From an uncultured Chlorobiaceae bacterium (GTDB lineage: Bacteria; Bacteroidota; Chlorobiia; Chlorobiales; Chlorobiaceae), in contig CAIRXW010000051.1 in the NCBI GenBank assembly GCA_903882665.1, positions 1 to 41,935 of the forward strand: 41,935 nucleotides of DNA, written 5' to 3'. A program made the position numbers and the translations under genes. Shown here in pieces: positions 25,282 to 32,538 of the stretch; position 1 is the first letter of the stretch, and every line of letters begins with the position of its first letter. The notes beneath the pieces are model-generated. The model saw only the letters and a program-made list of their open reading frames with translations, was not told the origin of the DNA and ran no database searches.

Positions 25282-27114
25282 TTATTCTGTGTTATAGACC
25301 ATATTGAGCGCATTATATACCTTGTCGATCTCTGCGGCATAGCGCGAGGTAATATCCTTGCGTTTGAGTTTCATCGTTGGGGTCATGTGACCGTTTTCAA
25401 TGGTGAATGCCGTGTCGACCAGCAGGAACTTGCGTACCTTTTCATGAGTGGCAAGCTGCCGTGAAACGGTACGCATGAGCTTTTCAAAAATCAGCAGGAT
25501 ACTTTTGTTCTCAATAAGCTCTTTGTTTGTGGCGGCAAGAATTCCTTCAGCAGCAAGAACCTCTTTGAGTTTGTTGAAATCAGGCACAATAAGGGCGATC
25601 AGAAAAGGTCTTTTTTCACCAATGACAATGACCTGATCGACGAACGAGCTTTCGGAAATCAGCTCCTCAATTGGCATTGGTGCAATATTTTTACCACCCG
25701 AGGTAACAATGATATGTTTTTTTCTGTCGGTTATTTTTAAATAGCCATCACGGTCAATAATGCCAATGTCGCCGGTGTGGAACCATCCATCCCGGATAAC
25801 TTCACGGGTTGCCTCCTCATCCTTCCAATACCCCTTCATGATATTCGGGCCCTTCAGCAGTATTTCACCATCCCCGGCAATCTTGACCTCAACGTTGTTT
25901 ACCGCAGGCCCTACAGTACCATACTTGATCTTTTCCGGTCTGTTCACGTGGGTTACCGGTGAGGTTTCAGTCAGACCGAATCCCTCAAGGATCGTGATAT
26001 CGAGTGCCTGAAAAAACTCGCCAATTTTCTGTGGCAGAGCAGCTCCTCCGGAAACAAAATAGCGCAACCGTCCGCCGAATTTGCTTTTGATTTTGCTGTA
26101 AACAAGCTTTTCAGCCAGTGCATGTTGCACAGAAAGAAGTTTTTGTGCCGTACCTCTTTCATTGACTTCCCGGTGATACTTTTCGCCCGTATTCAGTGCC
26201 CAGTAAAAGATTTTCTGCTTTAGGGCACTCTGTGTTGAAATCTGCTTGAGTATGCTCATCTTGATGCGGTCAAACAGTCTCGGCACGGTAAAGATGATGG
26301 TTGGGCGTGCCTCGCTCATGTTCAGCGAAATCGTTTCAACACTTTCGGCCAGATAGATGGTTGCTCCACAGGAAAAGAGCAGGTAATAACCTCCGGTTCG
26401 CTCATAGGCGTGGGAGAGAGGAAGAAAGGATAGTCCGCAATCAGAATCATCGAGGCGGATAACGGATGAGCAGGATTTCACATTTTCACAAATATTGCGG
26501 TGCGTGAGCATCACCCCTTTTGGCACTCCCGTCGTGCCGGATGTATAGATAATGGTCGCAACATCGTCGGGCTCGACAATCGTCCCGTCAAGGATCCATG
26601 GCTTTTCTTCAAGAATTTTTTCACCCATTGCCTTGACCTGATTCAGATCAAGGACATCTTCGATGGCTTCCTCAAGCCGGTTCATGACCACTACAAGTGT
26701 CAAATCAGGAAGTTTCTGCCAGATGGAAAGGATTTTGCCAAGCTGAAGCATGTTTGAGACTATGATGGCCTTCGCACTGCAGTTGTTGAGAATGTACTCA
26801 ATCTGGTTAGCCGGCAGAGAGGGGTAGAGCGGCACATTGATAGCCCCGATATTGAGTATAGCCATGTCAGCAAGGTACCATCCGGGTCTGTTTTCCGAAA
26901 GAATGGCAACCCGCTCTTTTGCCGAGATGCCGTTGCGTTTCAGAAATGCAGAGAGAGTATGGACATCTTTTTCAAAAGCATCATAAAAAATGGGTTCATA
27001 CACCCCATTGATCTTCCTTGCGATTGGAAATTTCGACTCCTGCCCTTTGAAATGGTAAAAAACAGAGGAGAAGAGTTCTGGCAATGTCTGGAAATCAGAA
27101 TTAATAAGTGCCAT
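25282..27114 (-). CDS. Long-chain fatty acid-CoA ligase (AMP-forming)
   Basis: The product is 610 residues. It activates fatty acids with ATP and CoA through an acyl-adenylate. The adenylate-forming signature is [17 protein letters not shown] (about 176-192). Others are [14 protein letters not shown], the SGGAALP and [11 protein letters not shown] segments, the hinge Asp in GWFHTGDIG, and the C-terminal Lys region [14 protein letters not shown]. It belongs to the bacterial/plant long-chain ACSL type. It is a single gene, divergent from the flippase-like operon across 219 bp. Confidence 0.92.
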
Positions 27115-27333: not shown

Positions 27334-28395
27334 ATGGGATTGACGAAAAAAACCAGTAGTACTCTGGTCGGTTATATCGGTCTTGCTCTTGGAATTGTCC
27401 TGGTTGTGTTTCAGTTTCGTCACATTGATTTTGCGGGTGTGATTGGGCGGATATCCTCAATTGGCTTTTCTTCGGCATTTATCCTCTTGCCATTTCTCAT
27501 GCTTCATCTTCTGGAAACGTTTGCATGGATAAGGGTTTTTCCTCCAAGCATAACAGCGATATCGTTTTCAAAACTGCTGAAAATACAGTTTATAACCGAA
27601 ACCATATCCATGACGCTTCCTGCGGGAATGGCTGTCGGCGAACCTCTTCGTCCTTTTCTTTGTCACCGATTTATTGGAATTCCACTTCCTGCAGGCGTTG
27701 CAAGTGTCGCTGTGCGCAAACTCATGCTTGGTGTGGCGCAGGGACTTTATACCATTATCGGCGCCATAGCTGGCTTTTCGCTTCTGCAGACGATTTCTAT
27801 TCCGATATTTCCCTTTGCTGTGCTTGGTTATATTTTGGTTGGTGCTGGTACAATGGTTTTTCTCGTTTTCCTCTTTTTGCTTTTTCTTTTGCTTAACGGA
27901 AACGCTGCACAGAATGTTCACAGATTCTTGATGTTGGTACCATTCAAGAAAGTGAAAATATGGCTGCTTGCAAAGGAGGCGGGATTTCTTGATACCGATG
28001 AGGAGTTGAAGAGTTTCGACACGCCTTTTGCCGGCAGGTTGCTTTTTGTATTACTCATTTATATTCTTGCCTGGTTCATGCTTGCACTTGAGAGCTATAT
28101 TATCCTGCGGTTGCTTGGTGTCGAGCTCTCTTTTTTACAGGTGCTTGCAATGGATACAGCAATTACCATGCTCCGGGCTCTCTTTTTTTTCATCCCATCA
28201 GGACTCGGAGTACAGGAGTTAGGGTATCGTCTCTTTTTTCAAGCGCTCGGCATGAATAATTTCGCTGATTATGGCGCATTTGTGCTTTTGAGACGATTCA
28301 AGGAGCTTCTATGGTACAGTTTCGGTTATGGAGTCATGTTTTTTTCAGGGGTTCATCTGCGTGATGCGGAAGGGGTGAAGAGCGGAGAGTTATGA
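27334..28395 (+). CDS. Flippase-like multi-spanning membrane protein (UPF0104/AglD type)
   Basis: The product is 353 residues with about 8 hydrophobic segments, for example LVGYIGLALGIVLVVF, AFILLPFLMLHLLE, LGYILVGAGTMVFLVF and LLFVLLIYILAWFMLA. The end has the conserved FFIPSGLGVQELGYRLFF motif of the lysylphosphatidylglycerol synthase membrane domain/flippase-like family. It has no soluble aminoacyl-transferase domain, so it is not MprF. Members are thought to move lipid-linked or phospholipid substrates. It is the first gene of a five-gene operon and overlaps the next gene by 4 bp. A TATCTTTG box at 27272-27279 resembles the -7 element of Bacteroidetes promoters. Confidence 0.8.
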   Translation: MGLTKKTSSTLVGYIGLALGIVLVVFQFRHIDFAGVIGRISSIGFSSAFILLPFLMLHLLETFAWIRVFPPSITAISFSKLLKIQFITETISMTLPAGMAVGEPLRPFLCHRFIGIPLPAGVASVAVRKLMLGVAQGLYTIIGAIAGFSLLQTISIPIFPFAVLGYILVGAGTMVFLVFLFLLFLLLNGNAAQNVHRFLMLVPFKKVKIWLLAKEAGFLDTDEELKSFDTPFAGRLLFVLLIYILAWFMLALESYIILRLLGVELSFLQVLAMDTAITMLRALFFFIPSGLGVQELGYRLFFQALGMNNFADYGAFVLLRRFKELLWYSFGYGVMFFSGVHLRDAEGVKSGEL

Positions 28396-29348
28396 AAAAG
28401 AAAGTATTATTAATTTGCGGCTCGATGAACCAGACGACCCAGATGCATCAGATCGCCAGGTTTCTGACCGATTATGACCAGTATTTTTCACCGTTTTTCA
28501 GTGACGGTCTCCTCGGATCTGCAAGTGACCGAGGACTGCTTGAGTTTACGATCATGGGCCGCAAGCGGTCGGAGCGTACACTTGACTATCTGCGCCTCAA
28601 CCATCTGAAACTTGACATTGGTGGTTTTGCGCATGCTTATGATTTAGTGGTGACCTGTACGGATCTCATTGTACCGAAACATATCCGGCGAAAAAAAATT
28701 GTGCTGGTACAGGAAGGAATGACTGAACCAGAAACTCTCCTCTATCATCTTGCACGAAACTTCCAGTGGATGCCCCGCTGGATTGCCGGTACGGCCACTA
28801 CGGGGTTATCTGATGCCTATGAAAAGTTTTGTGTTGCCAGTGAAGGCTATCGTAATCTGTTTATCCGCAAAGGGGTGAGTCCAGCAAAGATTGAGGTGAC
28901 AAGCATTCCAAACTTTGACAATTGCGAACAGTATCTTCAGAACGATTTTGCCTGGCGCGATTACGTGCTTGTTTGTACATCGGATAACCGTGAAACGTTT
29001 ATTTACGAAAATCGCCTCAAAAACATCAGAAAGTATCTTGAAATAGCCGATGGCCGTCAGCTTCTTTTCAAATTGCATCCCAATGAAAATATCGAAAGGG
29101 CGACAAGGGAAATTGAACGCTACGCTCCCAGGAGCCTTGTTTTCAGTGAAGGAAAAACCGAAGAGATGATTGCCAACTCCGTGATGTTGATAGCACAGTT
29201 TTCATCTACCATTTTTGTGGCTTCCGCCCTCAACAAGATTGTACATTGCAGCCTGCCCCCTGAAGAGTTAAAAGCCCTTACGCCGTTACAGAATAAATCT
29301 GCAGCAAGAAAAATCGCTGATGTCTGCCGGCAGGTAATCGAGGGGTGA
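28392..29348 (+). CDS. Unknown GT-B-like protein in a sugar-acid operon
   Basis: The product is 318 residues with no signal peptide. I do not recognise a named family. The N-terminus ([20 protein letters not shown]) and the middle ([11 protein letters not shown]) look like the first Rossmann half of a GT-B enzyme. The C-terminal half has [14 protein letters not shown] and [19 protein letters not shown], which resemble the donor-binding HP and SST segments of CDP-glycerol/KpsS-type transferases and UDP-GlcNAc epimerases. The likely role is transfer or processing of the sugar acid made by the downstream genes. It overlaps the flippase-like gene by 4 bp (ATGA) and is 22 bp before the cytidylyltransferase gene. 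Confidence 0.55.
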
Positions 29349-29370
29349 CAACAAGAAACAACTATTTATT

Positions 29371-30084
29371 ATGCACACCGTAGCAATCATTCCTGCAAGA
29401 GGCGGATCGAAAGGGCTGAAAGAGAAAAATATTTATCCCGTGGCAGGAAAACCCTTGTTGGCGTGGACTGTTTTGCAGGCATTGACATCGACAAGCATTG
29501 AAAAAGTCTTTGTTACAACGGACGACGAGGCTATAGCAAAAGTTGCTTCTGAATATGGAGCAGAGGTGATTGTGCGCCCTGCGGAACTTGCCGGCGACAA
29601 GGCAAGCTCAGAATCGGCTCTCTTGCATGCCGCAGAGGTTATTGAACAGGAGTACAAGATGCCGCTCAGTACCATTGTCTTTCTTCAGGCCACCTCCCCC
29701 TTGCGGAAGCCGGGAGATATTGATCGTGCTGCAGAGCTGTTTTTTCGGGAAGAAGCGGATTCGCTCATTTCAGTCACCAGAGCCGATGACCTTACCTTAT
29801 GGGAATCAAGGGGAGGGAAGTGGGAGAGTGTCAATTTTGATTACCGCAATCGCGGCATGCGTCAGGATCGTTCAACGCAGTTCATTGAAAATGGCTCGAT
29901 CTATATTTTCACACCTGAAACTCTTGTTACTTTTGGCAACAGAATCGGTCAAAAACTCTCTGTTTATGAAATGGAATTCTGGCAAACATGGGAGATTGAT
30001 AGTGTCGAGGAAATAGATTTGATTGAGTATTACTTGTATAAAAAAAACCTGGCCGTCCAGGATGCAAATCAACAGAACCATTAG
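29371..30084 (+). CDS. CMP-sugar-acid synthetase (NeuA-type cytidylyltransferase)
   Basis: The product is 237 residues. The N-terminal [13 protein letters not shown] (8-20) is the CTP-binding loop of acylneuraminate cytidylyltransferases, distinct from the KdsB loop (PARYxSTRLPGKP). [15 protein letters not shown] and VTRADD follow; [11 protein letters not shown] is the substrate segment and [11 protein letters not shown] the metal-binding end. It would activate an eight- or nine-carbon sugar acid as its CMP derivative. The adjacent dehydrogenase and aminotransferase suggest that the acid is amino-substituted. The exact substrate is not shown by the sequence. Confidence 0.85.
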
Positions 30085-30096
30085 AACACTGATTTT

Positions 30097-31227
30097 ATGA
30101 ATTTTTTTTTATCCACCGATCTTGTTATCGGGGTTAACGAAGCACTGAAGCTGAATGAGCATCTGGCACAATTATCGGTGAAGAAGCCTGGCATTATCTA
30201 CGATGCCAACATAGCCGGAACGCTCTATTTTCAGGAGGTATTGAGGAACCTCACCTCTGCGTATACCAATGCCGTGCTCTATTGCAACGAATTCGGCGGA
30301 GAGCCGACCTATACCCATCTTGAAACGGTGGCTGAATTTTTCCGGAGTAATCCACCTGACACCATTGTTGCCATAGGCGGAGGCAGTACCCTTGATCTCG
30401 GCAAAGGGGTTGCACTGCTTATGACCAACACCGTCCCGGCTCTTTCGCTCAAGGGATTTCCTTCCGGGGTGAACGATCCTCTGCCGCTTGTAACGGTACC
30501 CTCACTTCTTGGCAGTGGCGCCGAAATCAGCTTTAATGCGGTCTTTATTGATGAAGTCGAGGGGCGGAAGCTTGGCATTAACAGCCGGAAGAATTTCCCC
30601 AAAAAAGCTGTTGTTGATCCGCAACTCTCCATGACGGCCCCTCTTGAAAGCGTTATTGCGTCGGCTATGGACAGTCTTGTGCATTGCGTTGACAGTTTCG
30701 GTTCGATAAAGCATACCGCTTTGAGCAGGATTTTTGCTGTAGAGGGATTTCAGCGCACCTTTTATGCGTTGCAACAAAACCAGCTTGATCGGGCAGAGTC
30801 GCGACTTGATCTTGCCATTGGCAGTGTCTGTGGCACGGCAGCACTCATGAACTCCGGAGACGGTCCGACAAATGGTTTTGCCTACTATCTCGGCGTAAAA
30901 CACCGTGTACCGCACGGTCTTGCCGGCGCGATTTTTCTCAAGGAGGTGATGCGCTATAACCACCTTCATGGTTACGAAAAATATGCACTCCTTAATCCCA
31001 TGCGTTCAACCCCTTCGCCCAGAGAGGCTACTGTCGAACTGCTTGAAGAGATGGATGAACTCTATCGGCAACTTCAGATACCTTCACTTGTCCCTTACGG
31101 GTATGGTAAAGGTAATGTAGCCGAATTTGCCCGTAACGCTTCAGAAGCCCTGAAAGGCTCTTTTTCGGGTAATCCGGTTTCATTTACTGAAGAATCAGCA
31201 CTGGCTGTTGTTACTCAATTAACCTAA
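30097..31227 (+). CDS. Iron-ADH family dehydrogenase, KdnB-like (Kdo 8-oxidase candidate)
   Basis: The product is 376 residues. It has the NAD-binding AIGGGSTLDLGKG (92-104) and the metal region AMDSLVHCVDS (Asp192, His196) and HRVPHGLAG (His269, His273) of the iron-containing alcohol dehydrogenases. At the position where the family usually has a further His (LPHVMRFN) this protein has LKEVMRYN (Glu283). Next to a DegT-type aminotransferase and a cytidylyltransferase it resembles Shewanella KdnB, which oxidises C8 of Kdo before amination to 8-amino-Kdo. That assignment is inferred from family and neighbours. It lies 12 bp after the cytidylyltransferase gene. Confidence 0.75.
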   Translation: MNFFLSTDLVIGVNEALKLNEHLAQLSVKKPGIIYDANIAGTLYFQEVLRNLTSAYTNAVLYCNEFGGEPTYTHLETVAEFFRSNPPDTIVAIGGGSTLDLGKGVALLMTNTVPALSLKGFPSGVNDPLPLVTVPSLLGSGAEISFNAVFIDEVEGRKLGINSRKNFPKKAVVDPQLSMTAPLESVIASAMDSLVHCVDSFGSIKHTALSRIFAVEGFQRTFYALQQNQLDRAESRLDLAIGSVCGTAALMNSGDGPTNGFAYYLGVKHRVPHGLAGAIFLKEVMRYNHLHGYEKYALLNPMRSTPSPREATVELLEEMDELYRQLQIPSLVPYGYGKGNVAEFARNASEALKGSFSGNPVSFTEESALAVVTQLT

Positions 31228-31247
31228 AAAAGAGCGGGATACATATT

Positions 31248-32405
31248 ATGGCTGGCGCAGAACTGATCGGAAGTGAGGAATTGGCTGAAATACAGGAGCT
31301 TTTCAGCCACGAAAAGGTCAATTTATACCGTTACGGCGGGGGTAATTACAAGGCAAGGGAGTTCGAGGAGAAATTTGCTGCATGGATGGGTGTAAAGTAT
31401 GCCCATGCTGTCTCTTCCGGTACCGCTGCAATCCATTGCGCCCTTGCAGGTGCAGGGATTGGGCCTGGTGATGAGGTTATCACAACAGCATGGACCTTTA
31501 TCGCTCCAGTCGAGGCTATCAGTGCGCTTGGCGCTCTGCCGGTGCCGGTTGAGCTTGATGAAACCTATCATCTTGACCCGCTTGAGGTTGAAAAAGCTAT
31601 TACACCTGCCACGAAAGCAGTGGTAGCAATTCCCATGTGGGCGTCACCAAAAATGGATGAGCTGTCTGCGCTTTGCCGCAAGCATGGCCTGATATTGATT
31701 GAGGATGCTGCACAAGCACTTGGAGCCTCTTTCAAGGGTCAGAAACTCGGCACTTTCGGGAGTGTTGCCTCATTTTCCTTTGATGCAGGCAAGACGCTTC
31801 ACACCGGTGAGGGCGGAATCATTGTAACCAACGACAAAGAGATCTATGACCGCGCAGCGGAGTTCTCTGACCATGGTCACATGCACCAGCCCGGTTTACC
31901 GAGAGGTAAAGATCCCAGACGCTCAAAAGGGTTGAACTTGCGTCTCAGTGAAGTGACTGCGGCAATCGGACTGGCCCAGCTTGCAAAAATTGATGCCATT
32001 CTTTCGAAATCAAGAGAGAATAAAAAGAAAATCAAGGAGGCAATCCGTCATCTTGACAACCTTATCTTTAGACCATTCAGTGATGAAGCTGGCTCACAGG
32101 GAGATACCCTGATTTTCAGGGTCAGGGATCGTGAAGCCGCCCTGCAGTTTGAAGCACACCTGACGGAACATGGTTTCGGTACCAAGATTCTGCCTGAAGC
32201 GCTCGACTGGCACTATGCCGGGGTATGGGGACACCTTCTTGGAGAGTATGACCGGTACCGCGATGCCGATCTTGAAGCGCTCTGGCCGAAAACAGGTATC
32301 ATGCTGCGCAGCAGTATCTGTCTGAACATTCCTGTGCTGATGGATGAGGTGACGATTGAGAAGCTTGTTCAGGCCATCGTTTCCGGTTCAAAAAAGATCG
32401 GATAG
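31248..32405 (+). CDS. DegT/DnrJ/EryC1 aminotransferase, KdnA-like
   Basis: The product is 385 residues. It is a PLP-dependent sugar aminotransferase: AVSSGTAAIHCAL, the cofactor Asp in LILIEDAAQALGASFKG, the Schiff-base Lys182 in SFDAGKTLHTGEGG, and SDHGHMHQPG and GLNLRLSEVTAAIG for substrate and dimer contacts. Given the KdnB-like gene 20 bp upstream it could aminate an 8-oxo sugar acid to the 8-amino form, but other keto-sugars are possible. It is the last gene of the five-gene operon, which ends at a strong terminator 23 bp further on. Confidence 0.8.
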   Translation: MAGAELIGSEELAEIQELFSHEKVNLYRYGGGNYKAREFEEKFAAWMGVKYAHAVSSGTAAIHCALAGAGIGPGDEVITTAWTFIAPVEAISALGALPVPVELDETYHLDPLEVEKAITPATKAVVAIPMWASPKMDELSALCRKHGLILIEDAAQALGASFKGQKLGTFGSVASFSFDAGKTLHTGEGGIIVTNDKEIYDRAAEFSDHGHMHQPGLPRGKDPRRSKGLNLRLSEVTAAIGLAQLAKIDAILSKSRENKKKIKEAIRHLDNLIFRPFSDEAGSQGDTLIFRVRDREAALQFEAHLTEHGFGTKILPEALDWHYAGVWGHLLGEYDRYRDADLEALWPKTGIMLRSSICLNIPVLMDEVTIEKLVQAIVSGSKKIG

Positions 32406-32427
32406 CGAGGAGGAGAGTTGTTCATAC

Positions 32428-32459
32428 AAAAAAAGCCTGCGCAATGCAGGCTTTTTTTT
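32428..32459. terminator. Bidirectional terminator between the aminotransferase gene and tRNA-Cys
   Basis: A perfect 6-bp GCCTGC/GCAGGC stem with a 5-base loop is flanked by seven A on the left and eight T on the right. The A and T tracts can extend the stem and serve transcripts from both sides: the plus-strand sugar-acid operon and the minus-strand tRNA. Confidence 0.88.
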
Positions 32460-32467
32460 GTTGCTTG

Positions 32468-32538
32468 AGGCGAAGAGCGGACTCGAACCGCTGTACAAGG
32501 TTTTGCAGACCTCTGCCTAACCACTCGGCCACTTCGCC
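32468..32538 (-). tRNA. tRNA-Cys (GCA)
   Basis: This is a 71-nt cloverleaf on the minus strand. The acceptor stem pairs GGCGAAG with CTTCGCC, with discriminator U, which is the cysteine identity base. The D-loop region reads GCCGAGTGGTTAGGC, the anticodon loop CTGCAAA holds GCA, and the T-loop GGTTCGAGTCC is canonical. CCA is not encoded. It is convergent with the sugar-acid operon, sharing its terminator. Confidence 0.95.

Follow-up and report, generated by a model that had tools for sequence, protein, structure and literature searches.

Which sugar acid does a green sulfur bacterium make with a KdnA-like aminotransferase, and from which precursor? The question is raised by a five-gene operon in a 41,935 bp contig (CAIRXW010000051.1; here the window) that is part of the near-complete 2.8-Mb genome of an uncultured Chlorobiaceae bacterium. 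A first-pass annotation had proposed that the operon makes a CMP (cytidine monophosphate)-activated amino sugar acid, either 8-amino-3,8-dideoxy-Kdo (Kdo8N), made from Kdo (3-deoxy-D-manno-octulosonic acid) as in Shewanella, or a nonulosonate analogue. The general idea of a CMP-activated amino sugar acid is supported by the comparisons below. From the company that the genes and their relatives keep, we consider it likely that the operon encodes the later steps of a sugar-acid pathway of nonulosonate type that starts with NeuB, in which its cytidylyltransferase, dehydrogenase and aminotransferase replace a set made up of an SpsF-like CTP transferase, a short-chain dehydrogenase/reductase (SDR) and a class III aminotransferase.

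A five-gene operon conserved in Chlorobiaceae

The operon consists of the following features:

27334-28395, + strand: FLP, polytopic membrane protein of the PF03706 (LPG_synthase_TM/UPF0104-type) family, from its PF03706 match
28392-29348, + strand: GTB, GT-B-fold protein, putative CMP-sugar-acid transferase, from an AlphaFold2 model, invariant motifs and neighbourhood
29371-30084, + strand: CMP gene, NeuA/PseF-type cytidylyltransferase, from CTP_transf_3 and Protein Data Bank (PDB) relatives
30097-31227, + strand: ADH, dehydrogenase of the iron-ADH family in which Asn takes the place of one metal-ligand His, from PF00465
31248-32405, + strand: DegT, KdnA-type pyridoxal phosphate-dependent aminotransferase, best PDB match KdnA (5k8b)
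32428-32458, + strand: intrinsic terminator-like hairpin closing the operon, 14-pair stem followed by a T-run

The first two open reading frames (ORFs) overlap by 4 bp and the next three follow after gaps of 22, 12 and 20 bp. The hairpin is the top-scoring candidate of a terminator scan. Coordinates, spacing and hairpin all bear out the initial description of five packed genes with a closing terminator. The order FLP-GTB-CMP-ADH-DegT, expected at the outset to be conserved in the family, is seen in Chlorobiaceae loci wherever the contig is long enough, and the closest relatives of the operon (Chlorobiaceae/Chlorobium) reach 99% identity. Such retention across Chlorobiaceae is far beyond chance. 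In a few Chlorobiaceae loci, an insert of 0.9-1.3 kb separates two of the operon genes; when the inserts were examined for extra enzymes, no convincing one was found. One insert of about 1.3 kb, on the opposite strand between the GTB and cytidylyltransferase genes of some Chlorobiaceae (L067:2929-3906), contains a GNAT-like ORF paired with a short one, and by eye the pair looks toxin-antitoxin-like.

Within the order Chlorobiales, GTB was found in 59/61 genomes, adjoined by FLP throughout. The cytidylyltransferase was present in all 49 Chlorobiaceae searched; the 12 other Chlorobiales lack it, giving no match above 67 bits. DegT was found in 47/49 Chlorobiaceae, and no match exceeded 167 bits in the other 12 genomes. 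The two Chlorobiaceae genomes that lack DegT have GTB and CMP near a contig end. FLP-GTB is old in Chlorobiales and the CMP-ADH-DegT trio is, within the order, confined to Chlorobiaceae. At the sister-family loci, an SpsF-like CTP transferase gene follows GTB in 7/10, and in one of these families (f3) the genes after it are for a split transketolase and a class III aminotransferase.

Neighbours of GTB and of the trio in other genomes

A GTB profile search returned 44 more Bacteroidota genomes outside Chlorobiales. Twenty GTB-containing stretches were fetched from other Bacteroidota (L169-L188) and 19 were counted as operon loci; the stretch set aside holds a lone second copy of GTB outside the operon (L176:5966-6988, - strand, genome G506). 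All 19 loci contain GTB together with the SpsF-like CTP transferase, the class III aminotransferase and the SDR (for example L187:700-6996). A short NeuB is present in 17/19, the remaining two stretches ending before it, a KDN-9-phosphatase-like HAD-family gene in 13/19, and a split or fused transketolase in 14/19. An OlsE-like gene of the fatty-acid-hydroxylase family is sometimes included. No description of a GTB-SpsF-class III aminotransferase-SDR-HAD-NeuB operon turned up in the literature with the search terms used, and a NeuB operon of phylum-level spread is brought to light here.

Using a threshold of >580 bits, the class III aminotransferase was detected in 52/54 GTB-bearing genomes outside Chlorobiaceae, namely those 44 and 8 of the 10 GTB-bearing Chlorobiales from other families. 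It was never found without GTB in the genomes searched, and 0/83 GTB-bearing Chlorobiaceae have it. The Chlorobiaceae system and the Bacteroidota operon draw on the same GTB, NeuB and phosphatase families and on the same set of enzyme classes, but differ in the families or subfamilies of their cytidylyltransferase, dehydrogenase and aminotransferase, and the Bacteroidota operon mostly includes a transketolase. As the distribution of the aminotransferase and the contents of the operons indicate that enzyme classes were swapped while NeuB, the phosphatase and GTB stayed, CMP, ADH and DegT look like non-orthologous replacements in a conserved nonulosonate-type pathway. This would be a clean case of its kind, with three enzyme classes exchanged and the synthase, phosphatase and transferase kept.

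The trio itself is also found next to NeuB. Two SAR86-type gammaproteobacterial loci carry CMP-ADH-DegT in the order seen in Chlorobiaceae, with identities to the operon of 49-51% for CMP, 45-46% for ADH and 60-64% for DegT, and in both a CBS-NeuB-SAF-TIM-barrel fusion lies directly 3' of the trio. Both genomes also carry another CTP transferase. When further trios were sought in 369 SAR86-class genomes, only the query's own genome matched. The SAR86 NeuB shares 35-36% identity with the short NeuB of Chlorobiales and, as this is low, the SAR86 link backs the pathway type and not orthology of the synthases. Some Chlorobium genomes have a further NeuB, about 640 aa long (L141; G013:C6), which is 43% identical to the SAR86 fusion, compared with the 35-36% of the short NeuB.

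In the genome under study, the short NeuB (289 aa; C30:83479-84189) matches PF03102 at 254 bits. It was found in every Chlorobiales genome searched bar a single one (family f4), which has weak, partial NeuB-like matches only and also lacks GTB, and it is 70-86% identical between Chlorobiales families. The best model for the HAD phosphatase encoded next to it is the Kdn-9-P phosphatase NF058599 (142 bits; Kdn is 3-deoxy-D-glycero-D-galacto-nonulosonic acid), followed by the KdsC models (126 and 124 bits). The route to CMP-Kdn in Bacteroides thetaiotaomicron proceeds via a Kdn-9-P synthase, a phosphatase and a CMP-Kdn synthase (PMC6200933), and these three matching steps support the grouping of a NeuB-family synthase, its adjacent phosphatase and the NeuA-type enzyme of the operon. 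The system here differs in being split between two loci and in adding dehydrogenase, aminotransferase, GT-B and PF03706 genes.

Genes for Kdo are present separately, with KdsA (above cut-off) adjacent to a KdsC-like gene and KdsB elsewhere. The KdsA-linked phosphatase (L155:1462-2013, - strand, G000:C17) matches KdsC models only. It reads FPVDGVL at the point where a DxD motif would supply the nucleophilic Asp, and on this sequence it is perhaps inactive. KdsB and the operon's NeuA-type enzyme are the genome's only cytidylyltransferases above the PF02348 cut-off. With no other non-KdsB enzyme above that cut-off, the operon product is the only evident candidate to activate whatever NeuB makes.

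Kinship of the five proteins

The product of the CMP gene matches CTP_transf_3 at 91 bits. Its closest PDB relatives are NeuA/CMP-Neu5Ac (N-acetylneuraminic acid) synthetases at 119-117 bits, with KdsB at ≤36 bits, in agreement with the first-pass annotation, which had called it NeuA-type and not KdsB-type. The aminotransferase had likewise been placed correctly: the top PDB match of DegT is Shewanella KdnA (5k8b, 278 bits; runner-up 162 bits), and in a tree with 12 other DegT proteins it clusters with KdnA with support of 98/96, in the KdnA group and not in an unrelated family. The dehydrogenase did not hold up as a close KdnB counterpart. ADH matches PF00465 at 120 bits, but KdnB (5k8c) is only the 24th of its PDB matches (59.7 bits; top match 101.9 bits) and the two are 26% identical. 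A DGPTNGFAY motif, present in 81/81 trio ADHs, places Asn at the third of the positions that we take, from general knowledge of iron-dependent dehydrogenases (Asp/His/His/His), to be metal ligands, and Shewanella KdnB has His there. An assignment of ADH as the KdnB ortholog is ruled out by this replacement and the 26% identity; on sequence it is a distant relative, KdnB-like in a loose sense only.

The role of KdnB is in the Kdo8N pathway (PMC5125639), and that pathway shares with the operon a KdnA-grouping aminotransferase beside an iron-ADH-family dehydrogenase and a cytidylyltransferase. The operon could accordingly make 8-amino-3,8-dideoxy-Kdo from Kdo, using its own CMP synthetase and transferase, with the NeuB pathway separate. 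The kinship of DegT, nearest to KdnA, and the Kdo genes in the genome favour this, as does the lipooligosaccharide (LOS) of Chlorobaculum (Cba.) tepidum, which reacts as Kdo by high-performance liquid chromatography with 1,2-diamino-4,5-methylenedioxybenzene (DMB-HPLC) (PMC12285230). However, the Shewanella loci (L129-L131) have the order KdnA-KdnB-KdsB, in contrast to the NeuA-type-ADH-DegT order here. Their cytidylyltransferase is KdsB-type, they lack the extra GT-B and membrane protein genes, and their dehydrogenase differs from ADH at the metal ligand. Through its relatives the operon is tied to NeuB rather than to KdsA: in other Bacteroidota GTB shares an operon with NeuB, and in SAR86-type genomes the trio adjoins NeuB. 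A Kdo8N pathway would also leave the NeuB product without an evident CMP synthetase. We therefore regard it as unlikely. Kdo, the first precursor proposed, is not the best supported, since the GTB/NeuB operons, the trio-NeuB loci of SAR86 type and the separate Kdo genes point elsewhere; the nonulosonate analogue, offered originally as a second option, is the better branch because of the NeuB linkage of both GTB and the SAR86 trio.

GTB scores below the cut-off with every Pfam family, and a phmmer search against the PDB gave zero matches. An AlphaFold2 model built from 18 homologs (pLDDT, the predicted local distance difference test, 89; predicted TM-score, pTM, 0.87) has a GT-B fold, with Z of about 14-17.7 to GT-B-fold proteins, and lends support to the early description of a GT-B-like protein of transferase type. 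In 114/114 GTB proteins, QEG and KLHPNE motifs are invariant at a spacing of 121 residues. Bacterial sialyltransferases use D/E-D/E-G and HP motifs for CMP-Neu5Ac binding and catalysis (PMC2169525). GTB thus resembles the sialyltransferase families GT-38, GT-52 and GT-80 in its GT-B fold and in having an HP motif some 121 residues from an -EG motif, but has Gln at the first place of QEG (114/114) instead of D/E, and no significant sequence match to the three families was found. The likeness of motifs is suggestive and not strict.

GTB might instead be an epimerase-like (NeuC-type) protein that supplies the substrate of NeuB. The best structural match to the model is to UDP-GlcNAc (uridine diphosphate N-acetylglucosamine) 2-epimerases (Z 17.7), NeuC being among the top matches at Z of about 17, and there is a weak Epimerase_2 match of 13.9 bits. 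But that score lies under the Pfam cut-off, TagF (a CDP-glycerol polymerase) and MurG also match the model at Z of about 15, and the catalytic carboxylates of the epimerases are not evident by eye. As the invariant QEG...HP arrangement moreover resembles the sialyltransferase motifs (PMC2169525), we find the epimerase role distinctly improbable and favour a putative transferase.

FLP scores 89.6 bits against PF03706 (cut-off 33.4), so that the membrane protein noticed at the start of the operon is a member of this family. An assignment as HpnL was rejected, the TIGR03476 score being 91 bits with a cut-off of 195.65. Outside Chlorobiales, FLP adjoins GTB in 3/19 of the Bacteroidota loci. That it exports a product is a guess.

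Proposed pathway and product

In the nonulosonate-type pathway that we favour, the short NeuB would join phosphoenolpyruvate and a hexose phosphate to give an acid 9-phosphate. By analogy with the Kdn routes of B. thetaiotaomicron and Prymnesium (PMC6200933), the hexose phosphate would most simply be mannose-6-phosphate. The neighbouring HAD phosphatase would release Kdn, or an acid closely similar to it, with a free terminal OH; ADH would oxidise the terminal CH2OH to an aldehyde, which DegT would turn into an amine. The NeuA-type enzyme would then activate this amino sugar acid with CMP, and GTB would pass the sugar on to an acceptor, either a lipid or LOS, with FLP as a possible membrane partner that flips or anchors the glycosylated lipid. 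This order is chemically consistent, as the terminal carbon is free only after dephosphorylation. Amination is placed at the terminal carbon because DegT is kin to KdnA, which aminates that carbon of an ulosonate, and the product may be, for example, 9-amino-Kdn. The comparisons establish which genes are there, their order, distribution and kinship, and the fold class; the individual reactions and their sequence, the aminated position, the acceptor and the role at the membrane are inferred.

Several observations weigh against this pathway. The NeuB/phosphatase pair lies outside the operon, on another contig in this genome, and the short NeuB is without a SAF domain. The 142 bits of the NeuB-linked phosphatase fall below the curated Kdn-9-P cut-off of 180, and if the KdsA-linked phosphatase, by eye, has no nucleophilic Asp, the NeuB-linked one may serve Kdo-8-P as well. 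To our knowledge, the sole characterised substrate of KdnA is Kdo-derived and is not Kdn. The co-occurrence of GTB and the class III aminotransferase (Fisher p ~4e-57, 308 non-Chlorobiaceae genomes) ignores phylogeny. The epimerase-like best match of the GTB model belongs here too.

The position of the amine is a further point. The operon may make the same CMP-sugar as the Bacteroidota operon, NeuB-derived and carrying its amine elsewhere on the chain, or having another chain length. Enzyme classes have been replaced one-to-one with GTB and NeuB retained, the SDR and class III aminotransferase alone do not fix a position, and the split transketolase in 14/19 loci hints at carbon-chain chemistry. 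The kinship of DegT with KdnA indicates the terminal carbon instead, and a transketolase is absent from 5/19 loci and was not seen in the Chlorobiaceae operon; we consider another position or chain length doubtful. The more specific proposal, that in all Chlorobiaceae a terminally aminated nonulosonate (9-amino-9-deoxy-Kdn or kin) is a core sugar of the surface beside Kdo, and that many other Bacteroidota arrive at the same CMP-sugar through an unrelated trio combined with the shared NeuB and transferase, is put forward tentatively.

More broadly, the operon and the unlinked NeuB/phosphatase pair predict a second acid sugar throughout the family. The structure of the outer-membrane lipid of the model green sulfur bacterium had not previously been established, and Kdo was reported in the LOS of Cba. 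tepidum by DMB-HPLC (PMC12285230). A Prymnesium peak that lined up with Kdn/Kdo standards was assigned through its mass (PMC6200933). As mass was needed for that assignment, the Cba. tepidum report is neutral on a second acid, which could have been overlooked.

A long-chain acyl-CoA ligase gene (AMP-binding; 25282-27114) is divergent from the operon. This neighbourhood with FLP is kept in Chlorobiaceae and several sister families, and it is conceivable that the ligase is tied to the lipid acceptor. On the other side, directly after the operon terminator, is a tRNA-Cys (gca) gene (32467-32538, - strand).

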